From a virus, in IMG/VR virus record IMGVR_UViG_3300030109_000220, positions 1-32,055 of that record: DNA of 32,055 nucleotides. One strand, given 5' to 3'. Below are positions 4,786-12,741 of this stretch, piece by piece (the first letter of the stretch is position 1; each line of letters opens with the position of its first letter). Under the pieces are notes generated by a model that had not been told where the DNA came from, searched no databases, and saw only the letters and a program-made list of their open reading frames with translations. A program made the translations under genes and the position numbers.

Positions 4786-4814
4786 CTCTCTCTCCTAAAG
4801 TTTTCACCGCTAAA

Positions 4815-5172: not shown

Positions 5173-5201
5173 TTTCTCTCTCCTAAAAGTTCCTACGCCT
5201 T

Positions 5202-5489: not shown

Positions 5490-5512
5490 TGTCTCTCTCC
5501 TTGTTGCTATGG

Positions 5513-5533
5513 TTATAATCTAACTGATTATAA
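5513..5533. promoter_or_regulatory. Probable operator, palindrome TTATAATC-N5-GATTATAA
   Basis: Perfect 8-bp inverted arms (5513-5520 and 5526-5533) with a 5-bp centre lie over the spacer and -10 region of the leftward promoter, the usual place for a repressor site. The HTH protein encoded upstream at 5721-5933 is a natural candidate ligand. I saw no second copy elsewhere in the window. Confidence 0.55.
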
Positions 5534-5545
5534 TATAACCGTCAA
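5517..5545 (-). promoter_or_regulatory. Sigma-70-type promoter for the distal leftward genes
   Basis: On the minus strand TTGACG (5545-5540) is followed 17 bases later by TAGATT (5522-5517). Transcription would begin near 5510, about 20 bases before the start of the 5489 gene. The -35 box is a 5/6 match to consensus and the -10 box is weaker (4/6). The surrounding DNA is strongly AT-rich. A palindrome overlaps the spacer and -10 box. Confidence 0.6.
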
Positions 5546-5579
5546 GCAGAAAGATTGCCGAAATTAAAATAAATTAGGG

Positions 5580-5644
5580 TGAGCGCGGAGCCGTTTCCGG
5601 CTCTGCTGGACCTTCTGGGAGAGAGCAATCCAGACTCGCGCTCA
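5580..5644 (-). ncRNA. Candidate three-way-junction RNA with anti-Shine-Dalgarno loop
   Basis: The 65-nt segment closes on itself with a perfect 8-bp stem, TGAGCGCG (5580-5587) with CGCGCTCA (5637-5644). Inside are two further hairpins: GAGCCG (5588-5593) / CGGCTC (5598-5603), capped on the minus strand by a GAAA tetraloop, and CTGGA (5606-5610) / TCCAG (5629-5633) with an 18-nt loop. On the minus strand that loop reads UUGCUCUCUCC, complementary to the GGAGAGAG ribosome sites of this phage. Strand is inferred from the neighbours; a plus-strand transcript would instead carry an SD-like loop. No T-run follows, so it is not a simple terminator. Confidence 0.55.
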
Positions 5645-5728
5645 TAATTTGTCGATTAAACCAGACAAAATAAATGGTATAACAAGCAAGGCCATCAGGC
5701 CAAGAGCTTGCAGACAATATTTAATCAT
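5642..5728 (-). CDS. Small membrane protein (28 aa)
   Basis: The ORF overlaps the end of the HTH gene (start ATG 5728, TGA at 5642-5644) and encodes MIKYCLQALGLMALLVIPFI plus LSGLIDKL, a single hydrophobic span. The TGA is the first triplet of the structured element at 5644-5580. Short length limits confidence, but the frame fills precisely the space between the HTH gene and the structured RNA. Confidence 0.4.
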   Translation of the reverse strand: MIKYCLQALGLMALLVIPFILSGLIDKL

Positions 5729-5933
5729 CTTTAACAATCTTCAATGAGTACCCCAACTCCCTAAGTACGGATTCAAAGTTTGGCAATGAGGCGTTGTGAC
5801 GATAGAACCATGCGCTCAGAGTCGCACTTGACACCCCTGCGCTTTGAGCGATGTCGTTTTTGGTGCGACCTGATTCTTGGATAATACTGCCAAGCTCCTC
5901 AACCAGCGGAGAGAATCTTCTTGTGTCGATCAT
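5721..5933 (-). CDS. HTH (XRE/Cro-CI family) DNA-binding protein (70 aa)
   Basis: The region 'GRTKNDIAQSAGVSSATLSAWFYR' (about residues 22-45) is a standard helix-turn-helix of the XRE type, with the recognition helix SSATLSAWF. The short C-terminal part ends 'YSLKIVKDD'. The protein has no oligomerisation or cleavage domain as in CI, so it resembles Cro or a small accessory repressor. It could act at the palindrome 5513-5533 just downstream, giving feedback on the distal genes. Start ATG 5933 overlaps the upstream stop (ATGA). Confidence 0.75.
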   Translation of the reverse strand: MIDTRRFSPLVEELGSIIQESGRTKNDIAQSAGVSSATLSAWFYRHNASLPNFESVLRELGYSLKIVKDD

Positions 5934-8518: not shown

Positions 8519-8745
8519 GCGTCATCCCCTCGCGACCAAGCGTCAATGGCGTTGCGAATGTTGTCTCGCGCTTGTGTAAAAAACCAAGCCGTATCGTCAA
8601 CCTCAAGCGAGTCAACCACCACCCTTGTATTTTGTTCAATTTTAACAGCAATGGCTTCCAGCCGCTCGACTAAACGTTCGGCCTCTTCTGCAAGTTTTTC
8701 AGCTTCAATGTAATCGTTAAGGCTAGTTTGGTCTGTGATACTCAT
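8515..8745 (-). CDS. First gene of leftward operon; small acidic helical protein (76 aa)
   Basis: The start at ATG 8745 is supported by GGAGAGAGCAA directly upstream and by the TTGACA/TATGAT promoter 32-59 bases further up; a longer reading from 8787 would begin upstream of the likely transcription start. The protein is strongly helical ('AEKLAEEAERLVERLEAIAV') and acidic. No family recognised. Its ribosome site is the exact 11-nt complement of the loop of the RNA at 5580-5644, so it is the best candidate target if that RNA acts in trans. Confidence 0.65.
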   Translation of the reverse strand: MSITDQTSLNDYIEAEKLAEEAERLVERLEAIAVKIEQNTRVVVDSLEVDDTAWFFTQARDNIRNAIDAWSRGDDA

Positions 8746-8768
8746 TTGCTCTCTCCAAAGCGGTTCTG

Positions 8769-8781
8769 ATGATTCGATCAT
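8769..8781. promoter_or_regulatory. Probable operator ATGAT-TCG-ATCAT
   Basis: A perfect 5-bp inverted repeat with a 3-bp centre overlaps the -10 box and start region of the leftward promoter in the divergent switch. A repressor bound here would block leftward early transcription. Candidate ligands are the Cro-like protein encoded from 8846 and the XRE protein at 5721-5933. It is a short palindrome, so chance remains possible. Confidence 0.45.
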
Positions 8782-8804
8782 AAACATTTTGTGAAACGTG
8801 TCAA
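8777..8804 (-). promoter_or_regulatory. Strong leftward early promoter (pL-like)
   Basis: On the minus strand the consensus TTGACA (8804-8799) is followed by a 16-bp spacer and TATGAT (8782-8777), a 5/6 match. Start of transcription would be near 8770, about 25 bases before the first leftward gene. This promoter should drive the whole recombination operon. Confidence 0.75.
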
Positions 8805-8845: not shown

Positions 8846-9034
8846 ATGACCCATTCTTTATTCATTGAAATTTTGGGCGGGACCACCGCCGTTGCACGGG
8901 CGCTAGACGTTAGCCCTCAGAACGTAACAAATTGGAAGCGAAGGAGTATTCCCTGGAAATACCGCTTTCGCATGGTTCGGATGGCTGAGATAAGGAACGT
9001 CAGAATACCAGATAAATTCATGGAGTCACGATGA
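8846..9034 (+). CDS. Cro-like HTH protein (62 aa)
   Basis: The segment 'LGGTTAVARALDVSPQNVTN' followed by 'WKRRSIPWKYRFRMVRMAE' has the Cro/YdaS-type fold pattern: helix 2 'GTTAVARAL', recognition helix 'SPQNVTNWKRR'. Start at ATG 8846 is preferred over an in-frame GTG at 8798 because the promoter lies in between. There is no Shine-Dalgarno sequence. As the first rightward gene next to a divergent promoter pair it occupies the position of cro in lambdoid phages. Confidence 0.75.
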   Translation: MTHSLFIEILGGTTAVARALDVSPQNVTNWKRRSIPWKYRFRMVRMAEIRNVRIPDKFMESR

Positions 9035-11397: not shown

Positions 11398-12741
11398 ATG
11401 CAAGGCCACATTCGTGAAATGGCTGCGCTTCTCCAGGGTATGGGGAGGGGTGGCGACACCATCCTAGCTCATATCAATCCCGAAGAGGCCATGTTACTGG
11501 ATGCGGTGACTGATGGCGGGTCGATTAATCCTGTGACGGGTATGCCTGAGTTCTTTATGGACGAATTTGGTGACCCTGAAGAGCTAGGGATTGGAGAGCC
11601 GGGAGAACAAGGCACGGGCGGCGGTGAGCCAGGAGACCCCTACGGTGGGGATGATCCTACAGGCGCACAATTTGAAAATCCTATGTTATCTTATCGTTTA
11701 AATTATGGGATTAGAAATCTAGGAAAAGAAAAAGTTCCGAATCCAAATGTACAACCGCGAGTCGGGGTTGGCTTCGGGTCGGGTGGATACACAAACCCAA
11801 CTATGCCGCAATTACTAGCGTTGCACTCTTACGTTTCAAAAAATCCGTACCAAGCGCCGTCATCGTTTTTAGATACACTAAAGACTGCCGTGACAGGAGC
11901 TTTAGAGATTCCTCCGAATCTTATTGGTTTAGACTTTGAATGGACCGGAAAAGATTTGATTGGTAAAGATTTAAGCCAAACGTTGGCGGGGCGTCCTGGC
12001 AACCAGCCTGCAATGTCGGTAGATGTCAACCCGTTAGGTATAATCGGTGGCGCAGCGGCTGACCTTGCTGGGGCGTTAGTGGGTGGAGCTATTTCCCCAA
12101 CAGTCAATATAGACACAAGCGGAAATATTACAACACACGGCGGGATTGGTAATACTATCGACCAAGTTAGCGATTTTTTAGCCGACCCGCCGGACATTGT
12201 AAGCGACATAACTGATTTGCCAGCCGAAATTGCAGACGCTTTAGGGATAACAACAACTCCCACCGATGAGCAACAAATAGCAAGCAATGCGGCCCCGTCG
12301 CCACTGTCCCTTACAATGGAGCCGCCAACAGAGCCGCCAGAAAATATGCAGCCTCTTGGAAGCCCCGTGGACGTGCAACCCGCACAGACTATGCCAAACA
12401 TGACGCCAATGAATGCTGTGTCGCCGCCAAGTGAAACTGCGCCATATACAGTTGTAGATGAATATTTAGATAAGGCGTATGATGCCGTTCGGGGCATCCC
12501 GGATTTCGTTGCAACCATCCCTGATCGGTTGTCGGTTTCTATACCAGGGCAAAAAGCCTCAACGAATACCGGCCTTCCGCCAGATTATTTTGGGGAAAGC
12601 AACGACCCGTTTTATCAAACACCGTTACAGGTAACTTCTCCACAACAAGTGGCTGAACAGATCATTGCACAGCAAGAGTTAGTGAATGCCTTGACCCAAC
12701 CGGGATACACGAGAGCGGGACAGGGAAGAATTTACCTTTAG
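11398..12741 (+). CDS. Large virion-type protein of unknown function (447 aa)
   Basis: The start at ATG 11398 is used because an in-frame TTG at 11353 would place the terminator inside the gene. The N-terminal region holds 'ILAHINPEEAMLLDAVTDGG' and 'SINPVTGMPEFFMDEFGDPE', a segment I recall from large proteins of marine phages, followed by a Gly/Pro/Asp-rich linker ('GEQGTGGGEPGDPYGGDD'). The middle has a hydrophobic Gly/Ala stretch ('IIGGAAADLAGALVGGA') and the C-terminal third is Pro/Thr/Ser-rich with a Gln-rich end. It is probably a particle or ejection protein, but no specific role can be assigned. Confidence 0.65.
   Translation: MQGHIREMAALLQGMGRGGDTILAHINPEEAMLLDAVTDGGSINPVTGMPEFFMDEFGDPEELGIGEPGEQGTGGGEPGDPYGGDDPTGAQFENPMLSYRLNYGIRNLGKEKVPNPNVQPRVGVGFGSGGYTNPTMPQLLALHSYVSKNPYQAPSSFLDTLKTAVTGALEIPPNLIGLDFEWTGKDLIGKDLSQTLAGRPGNQPAMSVDVNPLGIIGGAAADLAGALVGGAISPTVNIDTSGNITTHGGIGNTIDQVSDFLADPPDIVSDITDLPAEIADALGITTTPTDEQQIASNAAPSPLSLTMEPPTEPPENMQPLGSPVDVQPAQTMPNMTPMNAVSPPSETAPYTVVDEYLDKAYDAVRGIPDFVATIPDRLSVSIPGQKASTNTGLPPDYFGESNDPFYQTPLQVTSPQQVAEQIIAQQELVNALTQPGYTRAGQGRIYL

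Follow-up and report, generated by a model that had tools for sequence, protein, structure and literature searches.

A predicted structured antisense RNA of a marine phage genus, with a loop complementary to ribosome-binding sites of early and accessory genes of the same phage

In a 32-kb IMG/VR virus record, analysed at its full length and referred to here as the window, a three-way-junction RNA element lies at the end of the early operon, and the core of its large loop, CUCUCUCC, is the complement of an octamer, GGAGAGAG, that stands as ribosome-binding site (RBS) before early and accessory genes of the same phage. In our view the element very likely regulates a phage early module as an antisense RNA. 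In particular, we consider it likely that the element is a phage antisense RNA from the 3' end of the early mRNA, the loop of which blocks the GGAGAGAG RBSs of early and accessory mRNAs. The initial annotation of this DNA had described a structured minus-strand RNA with a loop complementary to the phage's own RBSs; this is borne out by stems that covary and by an octamer RBS that is almost confined to carriers of the element, and the coordinates, GAAA tetraloop and 18-nt loop that it gave agree with the sequence and the folds (Table 1).

Table 1. Positions in the window of the element, its parts, the neighbouring features and the candidate target sites.
Feature	Position	Strand	Basis or remark
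Structured antisense RNA element (predicted), three-way junction	5580..5644; conserved unit about 5648 to 5578	-	fold, covariance model, pattern
Closing stem, 5' arm, 7 bp conserved	5637..5643	-	two-sided C-G to U-A change in groups C, D
Stem 2, 5' arm CUGGA	5629..5633	-	two-sided changes in 3/5 pairs
Stem 2, 3' arm UCCAG	5606..5610	-	hand-aligned stems
Anti-ribosome-binding-site loop (by complementarity), 18 nt	5611..5628	-	little or no pairing in folds
CUCUCUCC core, complement of GGAGAGAG	5618..5625	-	groups A, B, C; CUCUCUCU in group D
GAAA tetraloop hairpin, 6 bp	5588..5603	-	two pairs with two-sided changes, loop invariant
Closing stem, 3' arm, and invariant ACC	5578..5587	-	ACC retained in all groups
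Early operon promoter TTGACA-16-TATGAT	8777..8804	-	11/12, consensus match only
HTH protein gene, last larger gene of early operon	5721..5933	-	weak Pfam HTH_3 match
28-aa single-TM (membrane-type) small ORF, end of early operon	5642..5728	-	overlaps end of HTH gene
Possible accessory-operon promoter TTGACG-17-TAGATT, just 3' of element	5517..5545	-	9/12 consensus
Target RBS GGAGAGAG of first early gene (ATG 8745)	8749..8756	-	loop's best of 367 starts, -21.8 kcal/mol (predicted)
Target RBS GGAGAGAG of first accessory-operon gene (ATG 5489)	5493..5500	-	77 nt downstream of element's ACC
Target RBS GGAGAGAG (ATG 5172)	5176..5183	-	octamer count and predicted pairing
Target RBS GGAGAGAG (ATG 4785, DUF6874 protein)	4788..4795	-	octamer count and predicted pairing

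Comparison of the copies in related phages confirms, at the level of sequence, that the element is a real structured RNA encoded on the minus strand. The minus-strand fold has an energy of -33.3 kcal/mol (z -4.05), which 0 of 200 shuffles equalled, and the plus-strand fold one of -30.7 kcal/mol (z -2.4). Compensatory (two-sided) changes are found in six of the 19 pairs and are spread over all three stems; over ten distinct rows 97.8% of cells are paired, against 20-44% when the partner is slid, and the covariation score was reached by none of 500 shuffles. The alignment was fitted to the model, and the stems, which are ungapped, were also checked by hand; since a MAFFT alignment that included group D put stem 2 in the wrong place, the stems were aligned by hand; one linker G of group D dropped out of that hand alignment, but the group D stems are all present in the sequence. 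Stem 2, with a conserved part of 5 bp, reads CUGGA/UCCAG in group A, CCGGG/CCCGG in group B and CUAGG/CCUAG in group C. Covariation of the stems in related phages had been named beforehand as a test by which the proposal could fail, and the stems do covary. The perfect 8-bp closing stem of the initial annotation holds for groups A and B, two of the four groups, to which the eighth pair (U-A, from 5644) is confined; the stem shared by all is 7 bp. The GAAA hairpin abuts the closing stem with no linker between them, and the group D copy has an additional small hairpin and hence four stems. An AUUA 5' of the closing stem and the ACC 3' of it are retained in all groups and survive replacement of their neighbours, by a 1-kb gene on the 5' side in G009 and by an excisionase-like/integrase cassette on the 3' side in G012, and we therefore take them to be the ends of the unit. 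A tRNA reading was rejected: ARAGORN finds no tRNA here, and the likeness of the 7-bp stem, the ACC end and the abutting hairpin to a tRNA is an analogy only.

Relatives were collected through scans with YqaJ, HTH, terminase and g5930 proteins and with two covariance models, R1 and R2. Twelve contigs, all from a single marine phage genus, carry the element, which was found nowhere else in the searched sets; its copies fall into four sequence groups: A (the window and L002-L005), B (L083), C (G009 and L241-L244) and D (G012). A structure-based pattern run over all IMG/VR contigs returned the same eleven contigs besides the window and no more, and returned none from the genomes of 84,980 bacterial and archaeal species; since it was derived from known members, it may miss strongly diverged copies. 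The exact loop pattern had no matches over viral contigs, a set from which records near the window may be left out, and the matches of a looser pattern were mostly due to chance, R1 finding none convincing among them. R2 gave no match in 76 YqaJ relatives and a single chance-level match (E 0.26) in 35 records whose capsid proteins are more distant. No similar DNA was found in the phage GenBank collection, and a capsid-protein scan of genome contigs found no prophage relative. Several neighbourhoods differ among these phages. In L232 (8712-9942, group D) a small excisionase-like ORF, which starts 2 nt past the element's ACC, and an integrase follow directly; as group D carries this integrase by the element, at least one member is probably temperate. 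In G009 and L243, a 331-aa gene with no Pfam match (L231, 8653-9648) is inserted 5' of the element and has its stop codon inside it. Two contigs, L084 (6001-6216) and L085 (1908-2123), have an HTH gene of 71% identity and no element; in its stead a DNA cytosine methyltransferase-like gene comes directly after the HTH gene.

As an RBS, the octamer is almost confined to genomes that have the element. On both strands of the window, GGAGAGAG is present five times, as four RBSs and the loop's complement, and in the five sizeable element-bearing genomes (154 kb) it is present 25 times, as 21 RBSs and four loop complements. Twenty of these 21 RBSs sit in early or accessory genes, the exception being at position 2090 of G012, before a 57-aa ORF outside the early region, and none of the window's rightward genes uses the octamer. 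Among 76 element-free relatives (719 kb) it was found 0 times as an RBS, and the sister sequences, 239 kb in all, have it twice in that role. Two of the sister records (G010 and G015) are incomplete and seem to be without the early region, and the sister genomes also differ in base composition, a caveat on the comparison. The genes behind GGAGAGAG RBSs in all contigs fall into about 19 families with no detectable similarity to one another, where kinship could be masked for very short proteins; because the families are unrelated, the RBS that they have in common cannot be put down to common descent of the genes.

The octamers expected at 8756, 5500, 5183 and 4795 are present before the named genes, and the site at the start of the ERF gene, GGGAGAAAGCAAUG, matches the loop at 12 of 13 bases, as the initial annotation had it. 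Among the 204-367 candidate starts per genome, the first early gene ranks as the best predicted target of the loop in the window, G004 and G001 and as the second best in G012; the best in G009 is another early gene, and in both G009 and G012 all five octamer sites rank within the top six. Of 2000 shuffled loops per group, 1 (A), 0 (B), 0 (C) and 51 (D) reached the mean duplex energy of the real loop with the GGAGAGAG sites of its own genome; the group D loop, with one G-U within the octamer, fits less well. The CUCUCUCC core is constant in groups A, B and C although their stem sequences differ. The 11-of-11 match to the leader of the gene at 8745 exists in the window, and L083 also has 11, but it is not a conserved feature, as L002, L004 and L005 have an extra A in the loop and match over 9 nt. 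In groups A and B the long match is limited to the first early gene while the remaining sites pair over 8-10 nt, and the conserved pairing core is CUCUCUCC with about one flanking base (8-9 nt). In group C a G-to-U change in the loop is accompanied by a C-to-A change in the RBS. The idea that the loop tracks changes in the RBSs ranks 2 of 24 permutations over the four groups with all sites and 4 of 24 with the first gene; with groups so few, and related to each other, joint change of the loop and the RBS flanks is suggestive only.

The early operon runs on the minus strand from its promoter through ERF-type, YqaJ exonuclease, SSB and HTH genes. The ERF gene of the window has no Pfam match and owes its label to the earlier reader's name and to its position; its counterpart in G009 matches Pfam ERF. 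At the end of the operon, the UGA stop of the 28-aa ORF forms the first three bases of the element, and 12 of the 21 differences between the window and L083 in this ORF fall at third codon positions; it has no match in the phage GenBank collection. Group B also keeps the ORF (MVKYCLQAIGLLALLIIPLILSDLIERL), and other small ORFs occupy its site in groups C (about 39 aa) and D (about 29 aa). On the 3' side of the element come a possible promoter, represented at the equivalent place in group C contigs by TTTACA-17-TATAAT, and then a second operon of small accessory genes from 5489. Repeats of the form GGTTATAT...CTAAC, which look like operators and are differently arranged between relatives, precede this operon at 5511-5540 of the window and in the homologous stretches of L004, L005, L083 and L232. 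A YdaS/Cro-type regulator (8846-9034, plus strand) is divergent from the early operon promoter. The early operon had been put forward as the target of the RNA, and the site of its first gene stands; the reach appears wider than this operon, since three of the four sites in the window belong to the accessory operon next door.

Based on these observations, we propose the following model. Minus-strand transcription, presumably from the early promoter, would yield the mRNA of the early (recombination) operon. The element would form the 3' end of this mRNA and would be released from it, perhaps by RNase P as for the C4 RNA of phage P1. With its CU-rich loop the element would then pair over 8-11 nt with the GGAGAGAG RBSs of early and accessory mRNAs of the phage itself and occlude them, so that ribosome binding is blocked. 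We infer repression as the outcome because occlusion of Shine-Dalgarno (SD) sequences has been shown for C4 and for NfeR1 (PMC5320573, PMC10746234). The RNA could act either released from the early mRNA or within it. With the loop blocking GGAGAGAG mRNAs, early transcription would hold down translation of the early mRNA itself and of the accessory operon, a negative feedback; action on the accessory operon's own transcripts would be in trans, as their promoter seems to lie 3' of the element. Judging from the sequence, the RNA probably switches off translation of the GGAGAGAG-bearing early genes together.

A rival reading is an RNA that acts only in cis. The loop of such an mRNA element would pair with RBSs on the same long transcript with no free small RNA, its partners being the first gene at the 5' end or, on read-through, the accessory gene about 77 nt downstream. 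The element and its targets do share one strand, the accessory RBS is close behind the element, and a promoter scan of the window found no separate minus-strand promoter just upstream of the element, as a cis element would have it. However, a promoter of the accessory operon appears to lie 3' of the element, and transcripts that start there would not contain the element; moreover, group D has a 1.3-kb integrase cassette between the element and the accessory operon and has nevertheless retained the octamer RBSs. We therefore hold a purely cis-acting element to be unlikely. We think it very unlikely that the element is an intrinsic terminator or 3' stabiliser of the early operon with incidental complementarity. 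Its position at the operon end, its strong closing stem and the A+T-rich sequence behind it in groups A and B would suit such a role, but groups C and D have no U-tract, so that a stem followed by a U-run is found neither in these groups nor by the terminator scan of the window, from which the element is absent. In addition, an ORF begins 2 nt past the ACC in group D, and termination would leave the conserved loop and the co-restricted RBS octamer unexplained.

CU-rich loops fit many SD sequences to some degree, and the element could in principle be a structured RNA of another function, for example in protein binding or as a processing signal, with GGAGAGAG merely an RBS preferred by the host. 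Given that the structural genes of the same phage do not have GGAGAGAG, and that neither do relatives, we regard this as highly improbable. The least probable reading in our judgement is the one that the initial annotation had offered for the other strand, a plus-strand RNA with a GGGAGAGAGCAA loop serving as a ribosome-binding-site decoy. The complement folds too, but all four one-sided pair changes are G-U on the minus strand and become A-C mismatches on the plus strand, which argues against a decoy; the plus-strand folds of the L083 and L229 copies deviate from the consensus, with 24 of 200 shuffles doing as well, and there is no plus-strand gene or clear promoter at the element.

To our knowledge, only a few phage RNAs act at the RBS to control translation of phage genes, and each of the best-studied ones serves a single operon. 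That the RNA and the octamer are restricted to the same genus, where the octamer stands before about 19 families, suggests that one RNA tunes an entire early module, into which new cargo plugs through its RBS. We would give roughly even chances to the fuller form of this idea, a translational regulon in which one processed RNA controls early and accessory modules through the octamer and unrelated cargo joins by carrying it, a C4-like arrangement with permuted hairpins and many targets instead of one operon. If this is true, a C4-like system has been scaled from one target operon to many. The pairing of element and octamer also provides a motif by which comparable pairs could be sought in other phages.

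Among known RNAs, none of 4227 Rfam families matched the window or the element regions above the gathering threshold, and the element regions of the window, L083, L231 and L232 gave nothing relevant at E up to 10, RF01695 (C4) included; as a positive control for this model, P1 c4 scores 68.8 bits. The alphaproteobacterial ar14 family (NfeR1) likewise silences mRNAs at the RBS with a CU-rich anti-SD loop, but carries CCUCCUCCC in three hairpins (PMC10746234), whereas the element has a single CUCUCUCC loop in a three-way junction and no hairpins with CCUCCUCCC. The cuckoo RNAs CcsR1-4 arise by cleavage of an mRNA for a small protein, from its 3' UTR (PMC10253847, PMC8625941). In contrast to the ar14 and cuckoo RNAs, the element is phage-borne, aimed at phage genes and without an Rfam match; of its upstream neighbours the HTH gene was scanned, and it has no match to DUF1127, the partner of the CcsR type. 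DicF of the Qin prophage is also a prophage sRNA from an operon transcript that pairs with mRNA and blocks translation (PMC12197685), but it is 53 nt long, targets the host's ftsZ and other mRNAs, and has no structural or sequence likeness to the element.

The closest parallel is the C4 RNA of phages P1 and P7, the tested precedent, in P1, for an antisense RNA that occludes RBSs (PMC5320573). C4 too is a phage RNA of about 65-77 nt with a closing stem, one tetraloop hairpin and one larger-loop hairpin, between a U/A-rich 5' flank and a 3' ACC (UUAU-GG...CCACC in P1, UUAU-GAG...CUCACC in the element). Its target RBS is just downstream on the same strand, the b2 site of P1 at about 33 nt and that of the element at about 77 nt, and the element's loop is complementary over 8-11 nt to the RBS of such a phage mRNA. 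C4 is described as cut by RNase P at the 5' side of its stem (PMC5320573, citing Hartmann 1995), and by analogy the 5' end of the element may be processed in the same way. The two differ in that the tetraloop hairpin precedes the larger-loop hairpin in C4, whereas the antisense-loop hairpin precedes the GAAA hairpin in the element; in the closing stem, about 17 bp in C4 and 7 bp in the element; and in their targets, the single icd/ant operon as opposed to many octamer-sharing mRNAs for one loop. No sequence similarity between them was detected. As the element does not match the RF01695 model and has the hairpin order reversed, we conclude that it most likely works like C4 but is not a C4; C4 is its nearest known relative by function, a likeness that may stem from descent from a rearranged C4 as well as from convergence. 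A true C4 antisense RNA (72.9 bits) does lie at 12404-12489 (plus strand) of L335, the sister phage G030, directly upstream of a BRO-N-like gene labelled from its sequence, with an isrK match beside it (12323-12406). The capsid protein of G030 is 68% identical, and the early regions of G030 and the window have no detectable protein similarity. The presence of this C4 in a sister phage indicates that related phages use such RNAs.
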